Assembly: GCA_029262055.1 (NCBI GenBank)
Contig: JAJDAD010000034.1
Location: forward strand, 1 to 64,000
From: Candidatus Zhuqueibacterota bacterium
Lineage (GTDB): Bacteria > Zhuqueibacterota > Zhuqueibacteria > Oceanimicrobiales > Oceanimicrobiaceae
Direction of reading: 5' to 3'
Length of the DNA stretch: 64,000 bases
The position numbers and the translations under genes were made by a program. The notes beneath the pieces are model-generated. The model had not been told where the DNA came from. It did not search any database and was given only the letters and a program-made list of their open reading frames with translations. Of the stretch, positions 8,425-19,232 are shown one piece after another. The number at the start of each line of letters is the position of its first letter. The stretch's first letter is position 1.

Positions 8425-8526
8425 TTAAGCTCCTGTTTTATGCAAGAAGTTACATTCTGTCATACTTTGGGCTGACCAGCCGGTTCTACTGCTTTTAGCG
8501 AAGTTGTTGGGCTCAAAAAAATAAAC

Positions 8527-8542
8527 CCAACCTACGGTGGCT
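8527..8542. repeat. 16-bp repeat, copy 1 (REP-like palindrome)
   Basis: CCAACCTACGGTGGCT occurs here and again at 9326-9341, on either side of the toxin-antitoxin pair. This copy belongs to a palindromic context with GTTGGG upstream and CCCAAC, and GTTGGGT again at 8601-8607. Similar palindromes ending in a CCCAACCTACG motif are widespread intergenic repeats. Confidence 0.6.
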
Positions 8543-8629
8543 ATCTTTTTCGCTCACTGGGGAAGGCGGCAATGCACCAGTGAATGACATTGTTGGGTGA
8601 GCATTTCTACGAGCGAGCATATTTTCTAT

Positions 8630-8693: not shown

Positions 8694-8984
8694 ATGGATT
8701 CATTTGATTTGAACAATATCCGCCCTCTAACTGATTTTCGAAATAACATGAAAGACTACATCAAGGAGCTTAACGATAACAAAAAGCCAATCATCCTAAC
8801 CCAGCATGGCAAGAGTGCCGCTGTTTTGCTTGACGCTGAGAAATATCAAGAAATCCAGGATCAGCTTGAATTCATGCGCAAAGTAGCAATTGGCATAAGC
8901 GAATATAAGAATAAGTCATTTCTCTCAATTTCTGAAGTCTTTGACGGCTTGGAGGAAGCAATTCAACGGTCGGACCAGAAATGA
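8694..8984 (+). CDS. Type II antitoxin, Phd/YefM family
   Basis: 96 residues. The N-terminal part (IRPLTDFRNNMKDYIKELNDNKKPIILTQHGKSAAVLLDAEKY) is the classic Phd/YefM DNA-binding fold; the acidic helical C-terminus would wrap the toxin. A GAGGA ribosome site precedes the ATG. The stop overlaps the toxin start (ATGA at 8981), so the two are translationally coupled. It is expected to repress its own promoter through the palindrome at 8654-8674. Confidence 0.9.
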   Translation: MDSFDLNNIRPLTDFRNNMKDYIKELNDNKKPIILTQHGKSAAVLLDAEKYQEIQDQLEFMRKVAIGISEYKNKSFLSISEVFDGLEEAIQRSDQK

Positions 8985-9265
8985 CAGTTGTCTTCAGCCC
9001 GCAAGCTAATCAGGATCTGCTGGAAATCGTCCGGTTCATTTCGAAAGATAAGCCCGGCGCCGCGCGTGCCTGGATGAGCGCATTGAGAAAATCAGTCGAC
9101 AAACTTGCGAAGTTTCCCCAGTTGGGTCGAGTCGTCCCCGAATATGGGGATGAGACCATTCGGGAGCTTCTTAAAGGACAATATCGCATCGTATATAAAA
9201 TTGACAGTCCGAAGAAGACAATTGCTGTTTTGACGGTCCATCATTCGATGCGTCCATTGTCCTAA
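8981..9265 (+). CDS. Type II toxin, RelE/ParE family
   Basis: 94 residues. Starts MTVVFSPQANQDLLEIVRFISKDKPGAA and continues through KFPQLGRVVPEY, ELLKGQYRIVYKID and VLTVHHSMRPL, the standard ParE/RelE signature with the P-x-x-G-R loop and RIVY strand. Members inhibit gyrase (ParE) or cleave mRNA (RelE); the LGRVVPE and HHSMR pattern favours ParE but does not prove it. Coupled to the antitoxin by a 4-bp overlap. Confidence 0.9.
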   Translation: MTVVFSPQANQDLLEIVRFISKDKPGAARAWMSALRKSVDKLAKFPQLGRVVPEYGDETIRELLKGQYRIVYKIDSPKKTIAVLTVHHSMRPLS

Positions 9266-9325
9266 GGCCGACCCTATGCTCCACAGCCATACGGGTTGCC
9301 AGCGATTGCAGCCAAGCAAGTGAAT

Positions 9326-9341
9326 CCAACCTACGGTGGCT
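9326..9341. repeat. 16-bp repeat, copy 2
   Basis: Identical to CCAACCTACGGTGGCT at 8527-8542. It lies 60 bp after the toxin stop, so the pair of repeats brackets the toxin-antitoxin module in direct orientation. Confidence 0.6.
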
Positions 9342-9353
9342 TTCATATCCTTA

Positions 9354-9809
9354 TTATCCGGACATCTTCTCCAACAACCCGTTGTGGTTCTCTTCAAAAA
9401 AAAGCTCGATATGACTTGGGACATCATTCCAATCTATATCGAATGTTGATGCGGTTTTCGTTCTACTCAAAATTAATCCACGTTTTTTGTAATGATAATG
9501 AATATAGAATGTGTTGCCTGTCTTGAGGGCAACATGGAGAATGTTGGAATCACTAGGAACATATCCAATACCGGGATCGCAATATTCATTCCCATTTTCT
9601 TGCAGGAGGTCTCGTTCCTTTTCTAATGCCAACCAATCAGCCTTTTTGAAAGCAGAGATAGCATCATTCAAACCAACTCGATCGAAATCTTCCGAACTGA
9701 AATTTGCCCTCTGAATCCAATATCCACTTTTCATCCTATTCTCTGTCATTGCCATAAATGTTTGCGAGGTCACTTCCACCATGAAGGAAAGAAATATCTC
9801 AAAAACCAT
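9354..9809 (-). CDS. Hypothetical protein
   Basis: 151 residues as an open frame; the true start may be the ATG at 9749 (MTENRMKSGYWIQR), since the first 20 residues look unlike the rest and no start has a clear ribosome site. The body is mixed alpha/beta, rich in charged and aromatic residues, with IHYHYKKRG near the centre. I recognise no family. Base composition is A+T-richer than neighbours, and it lies just left of the duplicated peptidase end. Confidence 0.55.
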   Translation of the reverse strand: MVFEIFLSFMVEVTSQTFMAMTENRMKSGYWIQRANFSSEDFDRVGLNDAISAFKKADWLALEKERDLLQENGNEYCDPGIGYVPSDSNILHVALKTGNTFYIHYHYKKRGLILSRTKTASTFDIDWNDVPSHIELFFEENHNGLLEKMSG

Positions 9810-9810
9810 C

Positions 9811-9938
9811 CGCCGGGTGACTGATTCTCCGGCAACCCTGCCGAATGTCCTTAAGCTTACCCGCGCTCTGTTTTATCCCGATTTGTCCAGGTCGGGGCCT
9901 ACCAAATCTTGGCCAGCAAACTATCCGGCCTACGCATC
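9811..9938 (-). pseudogene. Duplicated 3' end of the M13 peptidase gene plus downstream flank
   Basis: The 40 bases at 9899-9938 match 17124-17163 at 38 positions and encode, on the minus strand, MRRPDSLLAKIW and a stop, exactly the last 12 residues of the M13 peptidase. Similarity continues more weakly through about 85 bp of downstream flank (compare 17036-17123). Nothing upstream in the gene is present. It is a remnant or an attachment-like duplication, and marks the left edge of the accessory block. Confidence 0.75.
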
Positions 9939-9967
9939 TTTGTGCTACCACTTAACTTAAGCTGGCT

Positions 9968-10023
9968 TCCCAAGACAATCCAACACGCCGCTTTAGGCGC
10001 CGGTTGAATTTGCTTTGTTAGGC
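9968..10023 (-). other. attC-like site 1 (after alpha/beta hydrolase 1)
   Basis: Read on the minus strand it starts GCCTAAC (10023-10017, a perfect R'' core), then an arm containing AATTCAAC (10010-10003) that pairs with GTTGGATT (9984-9977) except for one G-T, with a central CGCC/GGCG hairpin, and ends in a degenerate core at 9974-9968. At 56 bp it has the size of a minimal attC. It lies 133 bp past the hydrolase stop. Structural inference only. Confidence 0.4.
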
Positions 10024-10155
10024 ATAGTCTCTGAAGCCGCCAGCCACGCGACTTCCTTTCTCATCTGCCAAGGGCACAGGCGATCTTGTTTTTGCATTAG
10101 CATCGTCAGTGGCTCGGGCCGTTGTCGTACCGCATGAGGCGAGTAGGTGCGCACA

Positions 10156-11688
10156 CTACTTGTTCTTGGACTCCAAATAGCCTTGCACACGCTTATTCGA
10201 AGGATCCAATTCCAGAGACTTCCTGAAGCTTGCTGTTTTGCTGTCATCGTCCCCCATTCCCCAGTAAACATTTCCAAGCATCTCGTAAACACGAGCGGAA
10301 TTAGGGTAGAGAGCCGCCGCAAACTGTAAAGCCTCCTCAGCCTCTGGAAAGTGATGCCACGACCAAAGGATCAGCTCTCCAACTCGGATAAGGGTCTTCT
10401 CTTTATAGGCATCTGGCGTTATCGCGCGCGCCGATCGTACTGCTTGTTTTGCTTCCTCTCCGTTTCCATCAAGAAACAGCTTGATCAGTTCGGAGGTGTT
10501 TGGTGGTGCTGGACGCCCGCCGCTAAATTCCACCGATACATCGCTGCGATTCTGCTTGGTCCAATTGACCAAATCGCGAAGATGAGTTGAATTTTCCCTG
10601 AGATAGCCGTCAAGAAATCCGAGTACAAATCTGTTGTTGATCGCATAGAGCGTATCCTTCGCCGTCGGGGCACGTTGTCCGGTTGGGTTTTTTGGCGCGT
10701 ATCGGCGAGACACAACATCGAAATGAGCCAGGGTGGGGAAAGAGAGAAGGTATTTGTCAGCAAATTTCAGCGAGTCATAAAAGCCGTGTTTTTTGCGTGC
10801 ACGAATGTTGTCGCTGGTTGCCACGTACAAGATTGGCTTAGTCATTTTGATGATGTCGTAATCCGGCACCGAGACGATGAGGTCGCGCCACACTTCTACG
10901 GAGCTGTCCAGGCTGATGATGGCATCAACAGAGGCGTCACGCATGCCTGCTAAAACTGCTGCCATGCCACCCCAGCTATGGCCCATTAACGCTACAGGCC
11001 CGATCGCCTGCTTGAATTGCCGGGTCATGTAAGCGAGGGTGAACTGCATATCGCGCACCTGCGTTTCGATTCCGAGGGGACCCGTATCCATCATTCTGGG
11101 TGCAACGCCGAATGATGGGTGCGACGCAACGATATAGCCGTGACTGGCAAGATATTCATACAGCCTGACATTCCCTCTGACGCTAGCGATCATGCTGGGG
11201 CCGTAAACCACCAGTGGGTGCTGACCTGCGGCCAACGGAGGCGAACCCTTGGTAGCACCGACTTTTGTTCCCAGCATCTTTCGCACGTCAGATGCAGATC
11301 GCCCGCGCCTTGTGGAGATGGTTACAAGAGAATCCAGGTGTCGGTGTAGTTCATCCTCGCTCCAGGAATCAAGAGCTCGGTCAATTCTTGATAGAAACGT
11401 ATAGTCACCAACCGTCAGGTGAGCTAATGTTTCGGTTGGTGCAGCGGGATACCAGATACTGATTTGAATTGGACGCGGATTCGTGCCATCACTTTTATTT
11501 TGGGTATGAGGTACGGGTTCATAATACCGTCCATAATCATATGTCATTATAGAACGAAAGCCCACTGGGTGTGGACCCAACTCCAGTGCATCTGTGTCGA
11601 ACGAGGACTTAGACTGAAGGCTCGAAATAGTCAGGACACACAGGGTGACTACAAGATACGCTCTTGAGTGCGCAAAACCATACAGCAT
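10156..11688 (-). CDS. Exported alpha/beta hydrolase with TPR tail (protein 1)
   Basis: Start set at ATG 11688, which has a GGAG site and opens a signal peptide; the frame is open to 11733. 510 residues. HPLVVYGPSM and GHSWGG (nucleophile elbow) with LDSSVEVW and LAHFDV give a Ser-Asp-His hydrolase of the PAF-acetylhydrolase/dienelactone-hydrolase type. The C-terminal 90 residues contain a TPR-like unit (NSARVYEMLGNVYWGMGD). Substrate unknown. A second hydrolase-TPR protein is encoded at 13029-14552; the two share layout but little obvious sequence. Probably a gene cassette: an attC-like site follows. Confidence 0.75.
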   Translation of the reverse strand: MLYGFAHSRAYLVVTLCVLTISSLQSKSSFDTDALELGPHPVGFRSIMTYDYGRYYEPVPHTQNKSDGTNPRPIQISIWYPAAPTETLAHLTVGDYTFLSRIDRALDSWSEDELHRHLDSLVTISTRRGRSASDVRKMLGTKVGATKGSPPLAAGQHPLVVYGPSMIASVRGNVRLYEYLASHGYIVASHPSFGVAPRMMDTGPLGIETQVRDMQFTLAYMTRQFKQAIGPVALMGHSWGGMAAVLAGMRDASVDAIISLDSSVEVWRDLIVSVPDYDIIKMTKPILYVATSDNIRARKKHGFYDSLKFADKYLLSFPTLAHFDVVSRRYAPKNPTGQRAPTAKDTLYAINNRFVLGFLDGYLRENSTHLRDLVNWTKQNRSDVSVEFSGGRPAPPNTSELIKLFLDGNGEEAKQAVRSARAITPDAYKEKTLIRVGELILWSWHHFPEAEEALQFAAALYPNSARVYEMLGNVYWGMGDDDSKTASFRKSLELDPSNKRVQGYLESKNK

Positions 11689-11812
11689 GTTTATCTCCGA
11701 TAAATTTTGCCAAATCCTGTCCTTTACGTTCAAACACTAGTACTTTTGTTTCGGAAGAACCCCACTCTCCAGGCTCTTCTTTGTCATTTCTTTATCCTCT
11801 TCCGTTTCTTCT

Positions 11813-11891
11813 CCCTAACCGCCTTGCTCACCGAAAAATCAGGAGTGTAGCGAGGAATTCATCCGAGTGTAGGTGTAGCAATTTGTCATGC
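11813..11891 (-). other. attC-like site 2 (after AlkC/AlkD-like gene)
   Basis: On the minus strand: a degenerate core GCATGAC (11891-11885), arm TTGCTACACC (11881-11872), 39-nt centre, arm GGTGAGCAA (11832-11824), spacer and core GTTAGGG (11819-11813). The two arms are complementary apart from one extra A in the first, which is the extrahelical-base feature of integron attC sites. It begins 28 bp after the stop of the gene at 11919. Confidence 0.4.
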
Positions 11892-11918
11892 TCTTGCCCG
11901 ATGAGAAACCATGCATTT

Positions 11919-12770
11919 CTATCTCCGTAACTTTGCTGCCGCCCTGATCTTTAGTGCAGCTTCATCTTTCTTCCTGGCGGGATGTCGAAGTGCGTGTCGA
12001 ATAAGCCATTTCATGTCATCGGATGAGTCCACTAGCCACCGTCTACAAATTCCAAACACTAAATCGGGATGATCTTTCGCAATATCCCCGAGATGATTCG
12101 CAACGCTACGACGCACATAGAGACTCTGATCATCTTTTAGTATTTCCAGCATAGGAAGTACAGGACTGGGGTTCGCGATAAATGATGGAATCCGTTTTGC
12201 CCAGGGCAACCTAGGGCGAGTGCCTTCTGAGCAAAGCCTACGAACATGAGGATCGGGGTCAGATACCCATTCAAGCAGTCGCGCCAGAGTGCGCTCTTGT
12301 GCCTGTATTAAGAATGGACGGATGGAAAATTCCGAACTAAACCGTTTTGTGAGTTCATATTGCGCCTTCATTGAAATCTCAAATGGATCTCGTCCATTGT
12401 TATTCCCTATGTCCAACCCATACTCAGCAACAAAGGAGACATGAGGTAGATAAAAAAATACTTCGAGCCCATTGTCTTCAGTATTCGATAGTGGCGGTGT
12501 CAAAGATGCCAAAAGGATATCTATAGCCGCTTCATATTCATCAGGTAAGAATTGATGAAGCACCACAGCGAATTTTCGACCTCTCTCTAGAATGCCTAAT
12601 GGCTCTATGCCAGCTAATGCGTGTCTACAAAACAATTCGCCATCAAACTCTGTATGTACAAGTGAAATATTGTGTGCCAAACATTCAGCCGCCTCCTGCC
12701 CAAGCAAGTATTTAAGAGGTGCGCCCTTCTGTATTGATTTCGGCGCAGCAGGTATACGTGGTGTAGTCAT
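11919..12770 (-). CDS. DNA alkylation repair protein, AlkC/AlkD-like HEAT-repeat glycosylase
   Basis: 283 residues from ATG 12770 (a TTG at 12776 is possible). All-helical with HEAT-like repeats; the segment EGTRPRLPWAKRIPSF, then LYVRRSVANHLGDIAKDHPDLV and MKWLIRHALRH, is characteristic of the AlkC/AlkD family, which removes cationic alkylated bases (3-methyl and 7-methyl purines) without base flipping. Activity is inferred from family. Minus-strand member of the accessory array, followed by an attC-like structure. Confidence 0.75.
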   Translation of the reverse strand: MTTPRIPAAPKSIQKGAPLKYLLGQEAAECLAHNISLVHTEFDGELFCRHALAGIEPLGILERGRKFAVVLHQFLPDEYEAAIDILLASLTPPLSNTEDNGLEVFFYLPHVSFVAEYGLDIGNNNGRDPFEISMKAQYELTKRFSSEFSIRPFLIQAQERTLARLLEWVSDPDPHVRRLCSEGTRPRLPWAKRIPSFIANPSPVLPMLEILKDDQSLYVRRSVANHLGDIAKDHPDLVFGICRRWLVDSSDDMKWLIRHALRHPARKKDEAALKIRAAAKLRR

Positions 12771-13028
12771 TAACAAGGCTTACTTGCAGGTTTGAATATG
12801 GGGCATAATCATGGGCTCTGCTGCGCGCGGCCTTCAAGCCCCCTTATTACAGGCACAAAAGTCCTTATGATTACAGAACGAAATCACGGCACGCACCCTG
12901 CGCGTCAGACAGCGGCTATTTTTTGAGCCATTATTAGTCATAAAGTCTGTATAATTACGCGGATGATCAGGACATTCGTCGCTGCATTTCAGGCCATTTT
13001 GGAAAAGTCTGAAAGGTATCTATTTGGT
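12771..13028. other. Gap in the accessory array without a gene
   Basis: No open frame of interest. GGCTT (12776-12780) and AAGCC near 12835 could form weak attC-like arms, but no convincing core was found. Confidence 0.3.
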
Positions 13029-14552
13029 TCACTGCTGAGCTTGGTTGATGATTTCCCAAAATCTGGGGCTGTCATGCAACGGGTTTAATCTTTCATCCTT
13101 TTCAATTGTTTCCCTGCTAGCCCAGTTGCCTTTTACAGCACAAGCCAGGGCTTCCAGGGCCGCTTCCGTTTGCCTGAGCTGGGATTGTGCTTGTGCCAGC
13201 CAACAACATACACGAGGGAAATTCGGATAAATCTGCTGGGCCAGTTTCAGCATTCCAACCGCACGAGTATAATCTTCTCTTTCCATGTAATCTCGCGGTT
13301 CATAAAATGCGAAATCCGCAAAGGCATGCGCCAGCATTCGGCGGGCAGCATTTGAAAGATCCGGATTTGTTGTGTCGGCAGCTTCCTCCTTCAAAGAAAT
13401 GATATTTAATCGCTTTAACGCCTTTTCCTGCTTGAGGTTTTTTTTGCTTTTACGGTAATCCTGCCTGAATTTCGCGACGGTCTTCTGGTATTTATAAAAT
13501 CTTTGCCTTAACTGATTACGAGTTTTTTGCAAACGTTTGACGGTCTTGTCTTGCGCCAGTTTGTCCATTTGTTGGCGTGCTTCTGCTGCCACCGGGTTGC
13601 CCTGGCAGTCAGCAGCCACTTCCCGATAGCGCCGCATGGCATCAAGCAATAAGCCTTGCTGTTCCAATACCTGGGCGCTTTGAAGATACTCTGAACACAT
13701 AGAGTCCATCCAGGCTGAATTGCGCACAGCGAGACCCGAACGCATGGCTTGATACTGCAGCCACTCAATTGTCTTTTCTGCAATGCTTTTTGGCGGCCAT
13801 GAGTGAAAACCGTCAAAAGTTTTAAAACGATGTGCAATACGGGTGGTGTCGAGTTCTTGATCCAGCCGACGGGCGTTGTCATAATTGAAGTCACCCGTCC
13901 CTGCAACACCGAAGTAAGCGAGAGGTCGCTGCATCAGCAATGTGGCTTGAACTTGACGTGTAGAAAGTGATAGCCCGCTACCGACCCCGACAATCCCGGC
14001 CAGGGCACCATCCAATTGCGAAGCTGTTGCCCAGGCATAGTGCGCCGTCCCTGAAAAGCCTACAAGGTATAGCCGAGAAGTATTCGCTTTAAATTTTACC
14101 TGGGCGTCGAATAGCATAGAGTTAAGCGCCCGGTCATTGACCGCTATCGCCGAGTCAGCATCGCTGAGAGTATTATATGAGCTCATAACGATATAGCCTA
14201 GCCGTTCGGCTGCCTCCCGAAACAATGCCATGGGCACCAGGGCTCTGCCACGCGGATCCATCAGGAAAAGGACGGGGAGCGAACTCTCTTTGTTATGTAT
14301 GGAAGGGAGATAAAGTGCGTACCGCTGGGTAGCATCTGTAGAGGCAACCATTGTTTTATAAAACTGGCCAGATGCACTTGTAGCGGGAGTCGTTTGGGTC
14401 AATACAAACAAGATTGCCGGCAAGAAGCACCAAGGAATCCAGTGTTGAGATTGTAGATCGAAAATCCAAAATCGAAATTGTGAAATCTTCCAACGAACTA
14501 CGACTTGCTCTTTTCGATTTTGAGAAATTGGCTTTTGTATCTTAAATTTCAT
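13029..14552 (-). CDS. Exported alpha/beta hydrolase with TPR tail (protein 2)
   Basis: 507 residues as drawn; the first 35 residues derive from A-rich repetitive DNA and the real start may be internal, before the hydrophobic WCFLPAILFVL segment that looks like a signal peptide. An esterase-like domain follows (LPVLFLMDPRGRA, nucleophile motif GFSGTA, late GFHSWPP carrying a possible catalytic His). After about residue 280 come coiled-coil-like, Lys-rich and TPR-like helices. Function unknown; similar in plan to the protein at 10156-11688. Its start lies 14 bp from attC-like site 3, as expected for a cassette start. Confidence 0.65.
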   Translation of the reverse strand: MKFKIQKPISQNRKEQVVVRWKISQFRFWIFDLQSQHWIPWCFLPAILFVLTQTTPATSASGQFYKTMVASTDATQRYALYLPSIHNKESSLPVLFLMDPRGRALVPMALFREAAERLGYIVMSSYNTLSDADSAIAVNDRALNSMLFDAQVKFKANTSRLYLVGFSGTAHYAWATASQLDGALAGIVGVGSGLSLSTRQVQATLLMQRPLAYFGVAGTGDFNYDNARRLDQELDTTRIAHRFKTFDGFHSWPPKSIAEKTIEWLQYQAMRSGLAVRNSAWMDSMCSEYLQSAQVLEQQGLLLDAMRRYREVAADCQGNPVAAEARQQMDKLAQDKTVKRLQKTRNQLRQRFYKYQKTVAKFRQDYRKSKKNLKQEKALKRLNIISLKEEAADTTNPDLSNAARRMLAHAFADFAFYEPRDYMEREDYTRAVGMLKLAQQIYPNFPRVCCWLAQAQSQLRQTEAALEALACAVKGNWASRETIEKDERLNPLHDSPRFWEIINQAQQ

Positions 14553-14565
14553 TTCTGCTATTGGA

Positions 14566-14680
14566 ACATAAGGCCTGGCTGTGCCACGCCGCTCTCTTCT
14601 CTTGATTCAATGACCTTCCGAACCACCGAGCCCAAAAATCACGCACGAAGGTAGGCGTCGGCACAAGCCATGAGTTAGGC
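14566..14680 (-). other. attC-like site 3 (after double-CDGSH gene), best structured
   Basis: Minus strand: perfect R'' core GCCTAAC (14680-14674), 4-nt spacer, arm GGCTTGTGCC (14669-14660), G, ACGCC; on the far side GGCGT, GGCACAGCC (14585-14577), spacer and a poor core. The arms pair over 14 bp with two unpaired bases (T and G) on one side, which is the extrahelical-base pattern of integron attC sites. The spacing GCCTAAC-N11-GCCGACGC equals that I recall for classical aadA attC sites. Confidence 0.5.
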
Positions 14681-14784
14681 AAGGGCTGACGTCAGCCACC
14701 CAACTCTCAAAATTTCATGTCCGGCGCACCCGGCGCAGGAAGGTCGGTGTTCATTCTTGTCTTTTCCAATTAGGAGGCGATGTT

Positions 14785-15420
14785 TCAATTCCCATCATCT
14801 TTGAATTCTATATGCCAATGCGTGCCATCACAAAAGGGTTTGTTCTTAGAGCCGCCGCAACGGCACATCGTAAAATGCTCAGTTGAAGCACCCTCTGCGC
14901 GTGTGGTATCGATCAGATCCGGTCCGCCGGACACGACATAGGGGCCATTTGGTGCGACAAAGACGCTCGGTTCGCCGTCTCGGTCGGTGTGTTCCGCATC
15001 CTCGACCGAGTAACTCAGGGCTCCTGACGGGCACTTTTGAATCGTCGCGATGATCTCGTCCGCACCCCCAGCGTCAGGATGAATCCACGGCTCTTCTTTA
15101 AGCCGGAAAACCGAACTGAGGCCATCGGTGCAACGGCCGGCATGTGCACAAATACCGCGGTTATCGTGAATCGTGATTTTCTTGCCGGCGTAGTTCTCCC
15201 GCTTATCCTCGATGCGCCCTGCAATTTTGGCAGACGAAAATCCAATTTTTGCGTGTGTCCCGTCGCAAAACGGCTTGTTAGCCGACCCGCCGCATCGACA
15301 TAGAGCCATGGTCTCTTTGGTTTCGATGGGCCCCTTTTGATTGGCGAGATTCTTGAGATCTTTCAGCAAATAGGGCCCGTTAGGAGTTGGGGTAATACTT
15401 GGCTTGTTCTCTAAACTCAT
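14785..15420 (-). CDS. CDGSH - ferredoxin-like - CDGSH iron-sulfur protein
   Basis: Start at ATG 15420, with AGGAG 7 nt upstream; the frame is open to 15531 but that part looks non-coding. 211 residues. Two CDGSH motifs of the form CRCGGS-x-NKPFCDGTH lie near residues 40-56 and 188-204, each with the Cys3-His set for a 2Fe-2S cluster. Between them, CAHAGRC and CPSGAL form a divergent Fer4-type cluster site (Fer4_19-like). Such proteins are thought to act in redox or iron-sulfur transfer; exact role unknown. Cytoplasmic. Followed by attC-like site 3. Confidence 0.85.
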   Translation of the reverse strand: MSLENKPSITPTPNGPYLLKDLKNLANQKGPIETKETMALCRCGGSANKPFCDGTHAKIGFSSAKIAGRIEDKRENYAGKKITIHDNRGICAHAGRCTDGLSSVFRLKEEPWIHPDAGGADEIIATIQKCPSGALSYSVEDAEHTDRDGEPSVFVAPNGPYVVSGGPDLIDTTRAEGASTEHFTMCRCGGSKNKPFCDGTHWHIEFKDDGN

Positions 15421-15572
15421 GTGAATCTCCTTTCCTTTATCTGGTTCGGTACATGGCCGCCAACAATCCCTCGAAAAACTGTTCTTTCTTTCACAGATTC
15501 TGAGTTGACTAACACCGGGCGAAGTCGTCAAGCCGCCGTTTTCGGCGGGTGTGGTCGGTCTTCAGTCATTTG

Positions 15573-15965
15573 TCACGCCAATTCATATTCAAATTCGTAG
15601 AAATGCTGACCACTTTCGATGTCTATTGACATTGTGCCTGTTAACCCTAAAAGTTCGCCAGTACCTGAATCAGGAACAATTTCAAGAAGCAGACGGTCTT
15701 TGCCTTTGTCCATTATTCCAAAATGCTGCAATACAAAACTCCCCAGTTTTCCTGAAAGAGTGCCTTGAACTTGCTCAATAGCAACGTAACCAGCCGAACC
15801 CTTAACAGCAGTCATTGCGCTTAACATTTCCCCCGTGCTTTTTGCCTCAAGTTCCCCGTGGAATGATTTGTCTATCGACATTCTCCCCATGTCTATTCCA
15901 TGTTTTCCCTCTACGAAGAAGTCAAGGGGACTGAGACTAACGTCAAATTTTCCTGATATTTTCAT
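15573..15965 (-). CDS. DUF3224 family protein
   Basis: 130 residues from ATG 15965, with GGAG 6 nt upstream. A single beta-barrel-like domain: MKISGKFDV, GSAGYVAIEQVQGTLSGKLGSFVLQHFGIM, then VPDSGTGELLGLTGTM and a tail HFYEFEYEL, which fits DUF3224 over its full length. Members may be allene-oxide-cyclase-like or ligand-binding; function unknown. A CCGCCG/CGGCGG hairpin and a weak attC-like arrangement start at its stop codon. Confidence 0.75.
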   Translation of the reverse strand: MKISGKFDVSLSPLDFFVEGKHGIDMGRMSIDKSFHGELEAKSTGEMLSAMTAVKGSAGYVAIEQVQGTLSGKLGSFVLQHFGIMDKGKDRLLLEIVPDSGTGELLGLTGTMSIDIESGQHFYEFEYELA

Positions 15966-16102
15966 ATCTTCTCCACTATGAAGGTACAAGGTCGATCATG
16001 TTTTGGCTGACCAATTTGACCTACTGTCAGTGGCCTGGCATTCTGCATGAGCGGCTGAGTAAACGAGAGGTCCGCTATACGGTGAATCTAGTGTGGGAAT
16101 TA

Positions 16103-16354
16103 TCATTGAATTGTAGTGTAGCCTTCTGTCCAATGGTCTTCACCCAAGTTGAATTCATCTACATAGAAACCGTTCTCTTCATCATCAGTCATCGGGTCTA
16201 TCAGCTTCGGAAAGTCAGAGAACCCTGGCTGAGTCTTGAGTCTTTCAATTGCTTCCAATGCTTCTTCTTTGGATTCGTAGATACCAATAACCTTAACGTC
16301 TTCGCGTTCATCTGTGCGACTATGCAGATGTTGAAGTAAGAATACCGTTTTCAT
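16103..16354 (-). CDS. Small conserved protein, DUF7336-like
   Basis: 83 residues: MKTVFLLQHLHSR, DVKVIGIYESKEEALEAIERLKTQPGF, then a C-terminal GFYVDEFNLGEDHWTEGY. This pattern (LLQH, VK-IG-Y-S, HWTEGF) recurs in small uncharacterised proteins often found beside toxin-antitoxin and immunity genes. Function unknown. Minus-strand member of the accessory array. Confidence 0.65.
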   Translation of the reverse strand: MKTVFLLQHLHSRTDEREDVKVIGIYESKEEALEAIERLKTQPGFSDFPKLIDPMTDDEENGFYVDEFNLGEDHWTEGYTTIQ

Positions 16355-16434
16355 AAATACCCGACTATTGGATTGTCACGCCCTCTCCGTAGGGGATATG
16401 ATCCCTTTCCGTTTGTTATGAGATATATTATGGT

Positions 16435-16989
16435 TCATATCACTATGCCACCAGCACGCGCCAAGTCAATGATATCCTCAATATCAGATCCATCATAAAT
16501 TGGCTGACCAAATGGAAAGCCAAAGTAGTTTTTGTGAATCAAGTTGAGCGCAACCCACATGCGTTCAAGAATGTGGTTGAATTCATCTCCAGTTATATTG
16601 GCCTCATTCCACACGCCTGAGGGAGAAAACACCTTTTGTTTGTCGATGTGAAAATGTGTTTTGTCTCTGACTATTTTCAATTTCTCAGATAAATCTCTTA
16701 TATCGGATAGTTCAAGAGAGTGACTTTTCAGTGCGAGATTAACAGTCCTTTCGTCGCATTTTACCAAATACCAAAAAGACGTACAATCTGGGTGCATATC
16801 AAGGACCTTACTTGCGTGAGCAATCATATCATTGAATAGGGCTAAGGAGCAGTAAGAAAAGAATCCCCAACTTGTGCGCGGAGCAACGCGACAGATTTCG
16901 TTGTATGCGTTTCGCTTTGATATTGCGAAACGAACTTCATGGAGAAGCCGTGTGAGGGCCCTACCGTACTTGTCATCACCCTGATTCAT
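16435..16989 (-). CDS. HEPN-like helical protein (AbiU2-like)
   Basis: 184 residues, all helical and A+T-rich at the DNA level. R108 and H114 in VRDKTHFHID form an R-x5-H motif, as in HEPN RNases and the AbiU2 phage-defence family, and the surrounding layout (early FFSYCSLALFNDMIAHASKVLD helix, late tyrosine/tryptophan-rich helix) fits AbiU2-like proteins. A role in RNA cleavage or phage defence is inferred from the motif alone. No partner antitoxin is obvious. Confidence 0.5.
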   Translation of the reverse strand: MNQGDDKYGRALTRLLHEVRFAISKRNAYNEICRVAPRTSWGFFSYCSLALFNDMIAHASKVLDMHPDCTSFWYLVKCDERTVNLALKSHSLELSDIRDLSEKLKIVRDKTHFHIDKQKVFSPSGVWNEANITGDEFNHILERMWVALNLIHKNYFGFPFGQPIYDGSDIEDIIDLARAGGIVI

Positions 16990-17035: not shown

Positions 17036-17163
17036 CTGGCGGACTCTCGATTCCCCGACAACCTACAGAATGTCGTTGGGGCAACCCTCGCTCTACTCTC
17101 TTCGGGTTTGTCCGAGTCGTGTACTACCAAATCTTAGCCAGCAAGCTATCCGGCCTACGCATC
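17036..17163 (-). repeat. Right copy of the duplicated M13 peptidase 3' end and flank
   Basis: Partner of 9811-9938; the 40-bp core 17124-17163 differs at two positions. It contains the last 12 codons and stop of the intact peptidase gene. The two copies bound about 7.1 kb of accessory genes in direct orientation. Confidence 0.7.
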
Positions 17164-19142
17164 GCGGCACCAGGCTGCACGTCGAAGGCAGCAAAGAACT
17201 CCGGCATATTGGTGAGGGGACCGACGGCGCGCAGGCCGCCGGGTGCATGCGGATCCGTCTTAACCTGGTTTAACAAAGCGTCGTCACGATGTTTGGTGCG
17301 CCACGAAGTAGCATAGGATAGAAAAAAGCGCTGTTCCGGCGTAAAACCATCAATTTCGCCCGGATGTCCGTCCTTGGCTAGTGCAATTTGAAGTGCATCA
17401 AAAGCAACAGCCAGGCCCCCGAGATCGGCAATGTTTTCGCCGAGCGTAAGCTTGCCGTTGACATTGACGCTGTCCAGAACCACGTAGTTGTCGAATTGTT
17501 TTTCAACGATGACGGTTTTCTCGGTGAACATTTTCTGATCCTCGTCCGCCCACCAATTGCTCAAGTTGCCGTCAGCGTCAAACAGGCTGCCCTTGTCATC
17601 AAAGCCGTGCGTGATTTCGTGACCGATAACCGCACCCATAGCGCCGTAGTTTACTGCCAGATCGGCCTTGGGATCAAAGAAAGGCGGCTGTAAAATGCCG
17701 GCGGGAAAGACAATCTCATTGTTCAACGGGTGGAAATATGCGTTTACCGTGGGCGGACTCATACCCCATTCGCTTTTGTCGACCGGCTTGCCGAGCTTTT
17801 TCATATTACGGTCAAACTCGAATTCATTCGCCCGGATGACATTTTCTACGTAAGACTCGGTCCTGACTTCCAGGGCAGAGTAGTCGCGCCATTTGTCCGG
17901 AAAGCCGATTTTCTGAACCATCTTTTCGAGCTTGGCGAAGGCCTGCTCTTTGGTTGCGGCGCTCATCCAATCCAACTTCTCGATGCGATTGCGAAAGGCT
18001 GTGCGGAGATCCGTGACCATTTGGTTGGCCTTTGATTTTGCTTCCGCAGGGAAGTATTTTTCAACATAGAGCTGGCCCAGCGATTCACCTAACGCGGCGT
18101 CGGTCATCTCGGCGAGACGTTTCCAGCGCGGTTTGAGCTCTTTGGTGCCGCGCAAGACCGTCTGGAAGAAAGCAAAGTCCTGTTCGACGAAATCAGAATT
18201 GAGGTAGGGCGCCATCGCGTTAACCAGGTGCCAGCGCATGTACGTCCGCCAATCGTCGATGCTCACCGAGGTCAGCAGCGCGCTGAGTTCCTGGAAGAAC
18301 TCCGGTTGCGCCAGTACGAAGTAATCCAGGTCACTTGCTCCCAGGTCCGCAAAATGCCGCTGCCAGTCAATGTTCGGGGTCTCTCTGAGCGCCTGTTTGA
18401 AAGTCCGCGGATTATACCACGCCGCGAGATCGCGGAGTCTTACCCGGGTCCACGAGGCTTCAGCCATCTGCGTTTCGATGCGCATGACAGTGGCCGCGGC
18501 GTTCGCTCCAGCTGTAGAGTCCTCCCCGAGAAGTTCGAACATTTTGCCCAAATGCGTGAGATACTCGCTTCTGTAATTGGCAAAGCGCTCACCCTCGTCG
18601 AGATAGTAATCCCGGTCCGGCATTCCCAGTCCACCCTGGAAGGCGTAGACCGCTGTGCTGTCGCTGTTCTTGAAATCGGCTTCTACAAAAACACTGAATA
18701 GAGCGCCGGTGCCGAGCCTCTGATGGTTGGCCGCGACCTTCAGAACATCATCAAAGTTTTTGACCTGGGCGATTTCATCAAGATGGGTTTGCAACGGCGC
18801 AATGCCGGTTTCTTCGATTCGGGCCGAGTCCATGCCCGTACGATAGAAGTCACCGACCTTTTGTGCGTTGCTGCCGGGTTCGTGATCTCCCGCCGCAACC
18901 TCGACCAACAGGCTGCGCAGAATCTCTTTGTTTCTGTCACGCAGCTCCGAAGCGATGCCCCAACGGCTTTCGCTTTCAGGAATCGTGGTATTCTTCAACC
19001 AGTTTCCGTTCGCGTACTGATAGAAATCTTCGGTTGGATCAACTGTTTTGTCAAGATTAGCCAGGTCTATCCCGTGCTTTTCGCCGCCACATGCAAGCGT
19101 CAGCATGGCAGCGGCGTACAAGAAAATGATTCTTATTCTCAT
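17124..19142 (-). CDS. M13 family zinc metallopeptidase (neprilysin-like lipoprotein)
   Basis: 672 residues from ATG 19142, with GAGG upstream (GTG 19154 possible). Signal with lipobox-like LTLAC, then the Peptidase_M13_N helical domain and the catalytic domain. HEITH (about 508-512) gives two zinc ligands, GENIADLGG (568-576) the third (Glu), and SWRTKH with the tail NMPEFFAAFDV is typical. M13 enzymes cut peptides outside the cytoplasm. Its 3' end is the sequence duplicated at 9811-9938. Confidence 0.95.
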   Translation of the reverse strand: MRIRIIFLYAAAMLTLACGGEKHGIDLANLDKTVDPTEDFYQYANGNWLKNTTIPESESRWGIASELRDRNKEILRSLLVEVAAGDHEPGSNAQKVGDFYRTGMDSARIEETGIAPLQTHLDEIAQVKNFDDVLKVAANHQRLGTGALFSVFVEADFKNSDSTAVYAFQGGLGMPDRDYYLDEGERFANYRSEYLTHLGKMFELLGEDSTAGANAAATVMRIETQMAEASWTRVRLRDLAAWYNPRTFKQALRETPNIDWQRHFADLGASDLDYFVLAQPEFFQELSALLTSVSIDDWRTYMRWHLVNAMAPYLNSDFVEQDFAFFQTVLRGTKELKPRWKRLAEMTDAALGESLGQLYVEKYFPAEAKSKANQMVTDLRTAFRNRIEKLDWMSAATKEQAFAKLEKMVQKIGFPDKWRDYSALEVRTESYVENVIRANEFEFDRNMKKLGKPVDKSEWGMSPPTVNAYFHPLNNEIVFPAGILQPPFFDPKADLAVNYGAMGAVIGHEITHGFDDKGSLFDADGNLSNWWADEDQKMFTEKTVIVEKQFDNYVVLDSVNVNGKLTLGENIADLGGLAVAFDALQIALAKDGHPGEIDGFTPEQRFFLSYATSWRTKHRDDALLNQVKTDPHAPGGLRAVGPLTNMPEFFAAFDVQPGAAMRRPDSLLAKIW

Positions 19143-19232
19143 CGTGTTCCTCACATTTGAGTTTACTAACGATTTATCTAAAAGCGCAGTTTGATGTCAC
19201 GGCCCGTTATCATCGCACTGTTCGCTCCAGCG

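Follow-up and report, generated by a model that had tools for sequence, protein, structure and literature searches.

Gene content and layout of the block

The window, the 64,000-nucleotide stretch of Candidatus Zhuqueibacterota contig C42 that was analysed, contains a run of genes between positions 9354 and 16989. ORF calls and domain searches place every one of these genes on the minus strand and assign them to mutually unrelated families, as the first-pass annotation of this DNA had stated. The block, bounded by an M13 peptidase gene on one side and by a detached copy of that gene's 3' end on the other, measures ~7 kb. Its features, together with the flanking ones, are as follows.

9354-9809, minus strand: 151-aa orphan, family not recognised, directly after repeat copy B
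9837-9944, minus strand: direct repeat copy B, the detached peptidase 3' end (MRRPDSLLAKIW-stop) plus flank, beginning 6 nt beyond site 3
9950-10023, minus strand: attC-derived site 3, downstream of the stop of the alpha/beta hydrolase gene
10156-11733, minus strand: alpha/beta hydrolase with C-terminal TPR, the cassette gene preceding site 3; likely start ATG at 11688
11815-11891, minus strand: attC-derived site 2, estX/marine type, downstream of the stop of the HEAT/AlkD-like gene
11919-12776, minus strand: HEAT-repeat, AlkC/AlkD-like protein, the cassette gene preceding site 2
13029-14552, minus strand: TPR / phospholipase-carboxylesterase-like protein, starting 12 nt after site 1
14564-14682, minus strand: attC-derived site 1, ~130-nt long family, downstream of the stop of the CDGSH gene
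14785-15531, minus strand: protein with Fer4_19 and two CDGSH domains, the gene preceding site 1; likely start ATG at 15420
15507-15581, minus strand: possible further decayed attC, unproven, ending in GTGTTAGTC, read from the sequence after the DUF3224 gene
15573-15989, minus strand: DUF3224 protein (domain match), with attC-like sites after its homologues in genomes G026 and G080
16103-16354, minus strand: DUF7336 small protein (domain match)
16435-16989, minus strand: HEPN / AbiU2-like protein, a weak match of 24.8 bits, under the cut-off of 26.8
17062-17169, minus strand: direct repeat copy A, the last codons plus 3' flank of the M13 peptidase gene (17124-19154)

Homologues of the gene at 11919-12776 carry the annotation DNA alkylation repair protein. 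Of the seven same-strand spacers in the 9354-16989 run, three hold an attC-derived site. The sites stand after the CDGSH, HEAT/AlkD-like and alpha/beta hydrolase genes, just where three structures had been pointed out in the first-pass annotation, and the cores named there are present too: GCCTAAC at 14564-14682 and 9950-10023, and GTTAGGG at 11815-11891. The four other spacers (12777-13028, the one following the DUF3224 gene, 15990-16102 and 16355-16434) yielded no provable attC, so that the cassette nature is demonstrated for part of the block only. The candidate at 15507-15581 has no significant homology, and in the plasmid searches 15460-15580 and 12777-13028 matched only unrelated sequence, Rhizobium genes and a position next to an E. 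coli IS5 transposase, for which reason no attC is claimed at either. IntI (TIGR02249) has no match on the window contig, and Rfam gave no match to either the window or the IntI loci described below.

Homology of the three sites to attC

As judged by comparison with attC sites from other DNA, all three sites are homologous to attC, consistently oriented and placed after genes, with core bases lost; integrons are present elsewhere in the genome and the phylum.

Site 1 belongs to a family of long attC sites. Its R'' core (GCCTAAC) is intact, as is the L''/L' stem with its extrahelical bases, while R' is decayed, reading CTTATG where relatives have GTTAGG. The stem described at the outset, 14 bp long and with two unpaired bases confined to one arm, recurs when the bottom strand of 14566-14681 is folded to minimum free energy. 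A covariance model (R2) built from four sites of the same-family relative G026 alone, and so independent of the window, scores site 1 at 85.3 bits (E = 2.2e-19). This is the sole copy in its own genome, and R2 matches elsewhere eight times in G026 and twice in G027. By blastn against 82 genomes of the phylum, site 1 has five matches in G026 and one in G027 at E-values of 1e-10 or better, the best being 1.4e-13 (G026, contig C30) and 4.8e-12 (G027); a search of 7.3 Gb of plasmid sequence gave it no match.

The four G026 copies are built as R'' (7), spacer (5), L'' (10, with one extrahelical base), loop, L' (9), spacer (4-5) and R' (7), which is the geometry of class 1 attC sites, and after several of the long-type copies in that genome a gene begins close by. 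On contig C30 of G026 a 227-aa gene has an attC on either side, a generic one at L099:14475-14532 (22.9 bits) and a long-type one at L099:13628-13759 (137.7 bits). The locus (L099 10488-14532) appears as a single cassette with two attC types, ~1.1 kb upstream of the orthologous M13 peptidase gene; cassettes thus adjoin the M13 peptidase gene in two genera, on opposite sides.

Site 2 is of a different type. In the same 7.3 Gb of plasmids it matches lone-cassette attC sites of marine Gammaproteobacteria, namely those of a Vibrio alginolyticus plasmid (76% identity across 76 nt, E = 2e-6), of Pseudoalteromonas (83% across 53 nt) and of Saccharobesus. It also matches the attC of estX (80% over 51 nt), a cassette found in hundreds of class 1 integron-bearing plasmids, in which the matches sit between estX and the next cassette gene. 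The generic attC model R1, described below, confirms the plasmid partners as attC, and in Pseudoalteromonas a second attC (43.9 bits) is found 1.7 kb beyond the match. Among the phylum genomes there is only a marginal 24-nt match. Site 2 is like the estX attC and the lone cassettes of the three marine genera both in sequence and in orientation relative to the gene. It differs from them in its decayed R'', GCATGAC for GCATAAC (TGAC for TAAC), in bases inserted in the left arm, in one extra G before R' (GTTAGGG), and in coming from a different phylum.

Site 3 retains a well-kept left arm (R'' GCCTAAC and L'', ~9978-10023) beside a decayed right arm in which R' is unrecognisable at the expected place. 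Only two plasmid matches were obtained at E <= 5 in the 7.3 Gb, the better one falling on the attC of the cassette that ends a class 1 array in E. coli JML285_P1 (83% over 36 nt). An intact attC of the same type from its own genome (contig C53, 1723-1782) is 88% identical over 26 nt. The E-values are 3.6e-4 to a homologue that was found by similarity to site 3 and 0.016 to an own-genome site found independently. Site 3 taken alone is weak, and is the weakest of the three.

When 333 kb of the own genome were searched with a set of intact attC sites, 11 of 11 matches at E < 0.05 fell in the three window sites, the array making up 2.4% of that sequence. Most of the queries had been retrieved by similarity to the window, the own-genome site at C53:1723 and the estX site being independent of it, so this control tests specificity, not discovery.

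Structure and covariance-model tests

Model R1 was built from 18 attC sites, 17 from class 1 integron cassettes and one from the integron of a relative (G049), none of them retrieved through the window, and it recovers known attC sites absent from its training set. Run on the array, as the first-pass annotation had advised for an attC model, it gave a single sub-threshold match (9978-10023, 12.0 bits, E = 0.25), and none of the three sites passes. Bottom-strand fold z-scores were -1.0, -0.3 and -1.0 for the window sites, compared with -3.6 and -2.2 for two intact attC controls. The folds of the three sites are no better than those of shuffled sequence, and the attC traits originally read from them as structures do not, by themselves, rise above chance. 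One-arm unpaired bases had been described at all three sites; an L''/L' stem with one-arm extrahelical base(s) is present in full at site 1 and partly at site 2, with none clear at site 3.

Nowhere in the window do both canonical cores (R'' RYYYAAC and R' GTTRRRY, complementary to each other) occur at their canonical places in a site: every site is missing part of the crossover core, and a strict R''/R' pattern scan of the window returned weak candidates only. Two marks of a canonical attC, complementary cores and a significant R1 match, are lacking at the three sites. What distinguishes the three as attC-derived is homology to bona fide attC sites combined with the right orientation after a gene; the proof of attC origin is this homology and not the fold. 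It had been proposed to give up the sites if neither a covariance hit nor a conserved fold was found. The homology searches overrule that rule, since decay removes exactly the features that such a test needs.

The fold and R1 results are what would be expected of chance hairpins or ordinary terminators in an operon-like run of vertically inherited genes. Against this stand the attC homologies of site 1 (E 2e-19) and site 2 (E 2e-6 in 7.3 Gb), which refute chance hairpins or terminators for these two sites, and the 333-kb control, in which all matches at E < 0.05 lie on the three sites. Vertical inheritance of the run accords poorly with a gene order that is not conserved in relatives and with the presence of DUF3224 in only six of the 82 phylum genomes. 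We regard this explanation as extremely unlikely.

The block had been described as possibly CALIN-like. That description stands as regards integron-cassette origin and absence of an integrase, given the attC homology, the orientation and the lack of IntI on the contig. It does not hold as regards the working definition, by which a CALIN has two or more detectable attC sites within 4 kb and no adjacent integrase, because none of the three sites passes the generic covariance model. Neither is the block a complete integron, with intI, attI and array at one locus: the IntI genes of this genome are on contigs C60 and C46.

Integrons elsewhere in the genome and phylum

A search of the genome for IntI and further sites, suggested alongside the covariance check, gave an IntI-like gene, an IntI fragment and two attC sites. 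The two intact attC sites lie on the minus strand of contig C53 (L185; 1723-1782 and 4382-4453, 34.1 and 27.8 bits), 2.6 kb apart. They form an intact two-attC CALIN at a contig end, with two detectable sites as the definition has it, in the order DUF1801 gene, attC, 807-aa kinase/TPR gene, attC, 189-aa gene, TIR-domain gene. Contig C60 (L001:280-1623) encodes a full-length, N-extended IntI-like protein (364 bits) with two SAM-like N-terminal matches. Proteins with such an N-terminal extension recur in G024, G028, G029, G041, G053 and G015, in open frames of ~447-490 aa. A canonical IntI on C46 (L002, C46:5743-6174; 215 bits) is cut to its C-terminal half. A CCAACCTAC repeat and a transposase of the RAYT type (Y1_Tnp) directly adjoin this fragment, and the IntI gene looks as though the transposase had interrupted it.

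Integrons are common in the host phylum, and the initial view of these phyla as an unusual place for them has to be abandoned: an integron integrase scores over the NCBIfam cut-off in 35 of the 82 genomes, and attC sites occur at E <= 0.003 in 24. In G028, of the same family, contig C133 (L186) carries seven attC sites in 5 kb among small unrelated genes, a plain cassette array, and in G049 and G077 attC sites lie near canonical IntI. Two homologues of the DUF3224 gene are followed by such sites, one in G026 (contig C25), where the stop codon is also the start of an attC-like site (15.7 bits, E 0.045), and one in G080 (contig C234; attC downstream, 30.9 bits, E 4.5e-6). Among the papers searched, none joins integrons or attC with KSB1 or Zixibacteria.

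The full-length IntI-like protein of C60 raises the question of whether the block could be a working CALIN, its cassettes still mobilisable by IntI in trans, the more so as IntI1 in E. coli was able to recruit archaeal CALIN cassettes (PMC9668308). R' or R'' is, however, incomplete at every one of the three sites. Furthermore, no attC was found less than 20 kb from the C60 gene, nor any intact attC close to the N-extended-type loci examined in relatives, the exception being one partial match 3.8 kb from the gene in G028 (contig C142). A working CALIN is, in our judgement, very unlikely.

Interpretation and comparison with known systems

It is highly probable that the block is a degenerate CALIN, the remnant of an integron cassette array lacking an integrase of its own, which arose by capture in trans or by stranding and in which genes were retained and cores lost. 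Cassettes with different attC types would have been captured by an IntI acting in trans, or stranded from their platform. The genes would then have stayed, presumably kept by selection, as the attC sites lost one or both crossover cores. With these cores lost, IntI can probably no longer excise the cassettes, and the array is probably immobile at present.

CALINs as defined by IntegronFinder (PMC9024848) share with the block unrelated genes in one orientation, attC-type sites between them and no adjacent intI; the attC sites here, by contrast, have decayed below covariance-model detection and are revealed by homology only. The cassettes of CALINs are still capturable by exogenous IntI (PMC9668308). 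The integron cassettes are of an already known kind, and the decay of their attC sites is the state that the present case adds.

Long attC repeats of the VCR-like type belong to the sedentary chromosomal integrons of Vibrio. In its general features the site 1 family resembles them, being also ~130 nt long and recurrent in one genome, with a conserved loop and canonical arms. Unlike them, the G026 copies are scattered over contigs and not gathered in one long array.

Integron cassettes have reached an uncultured phylum in which integrases and attC are common, and one attC type of this block resembles those of marine Gammaproteobacteria and of clinical class 1 integrons. Decayed arrays of this sort escape covariance-model searches and can be recovered with the attC types of the genome or family itself; cassette capture is consequently undercounted as a source of fixed chromosomal genes.

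The flanking repeat and the route of arrival

The two copies of the repeat on either side of the block are 95% identical in their coding part (37 of 39 positions, both differences synonymous) and 66% identical in the flank (41 of 62; Fisher p = 6e-4). No convincing third copy exists in the own genome. The gene order around the peptidase (PepO) is not conserved in G025 and G026, and no empty site is readable there.

A direct repeat of a gene's 3' end flanking a block is typical of genomic islands, and a phage-type tyrosine recombinase might have inserted one at the peptidase 3' end, the repeats being attL and attR and the cassettes carried by chance. No integrase gene is present in or beside the block, however, and the similarity of the repeats runs on into the flank at ~66%, unlike a short identical att core. 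Such an island is rather unlikely as an explanation.

For the cassette-array remnant, the two peptidase 3'-end copies suggest arrival by homologous recombination. Coding constraint would not be expected to persist in a dead duplicate, from which we infer that the copies are two lineages' versions of one gene end. Since the flanking copies differ in this way, the block may have entered as a circle, by a single homologous crossover with the 3' end of the peptidase gene, a step proposed with less confidence than the capture by IntI. Site 3 ends 6 nt from copy B, which would fit a circle closed between an attC and the peptidase gene. A hybrid route between lineages can be imagined, in which an attC would recombine in the IntI manner with a secondary site lying within the peptidase gene, and the circle so formed would then integrate by homology at the peptidase 3' end. 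This seems rather doubtful; if true, it would spread integrase-less cassette blocks without any integrase in the recipient.

Beyond the far end of the block, a plus-strand Phd/ParE toxin-antitoxin pair (8694-9265) lies between 32-nt direct repeats at 8514-8545 and 9313-9344 (81%). One of these repeats resembles the sequence beside the RAYT gene of C46.
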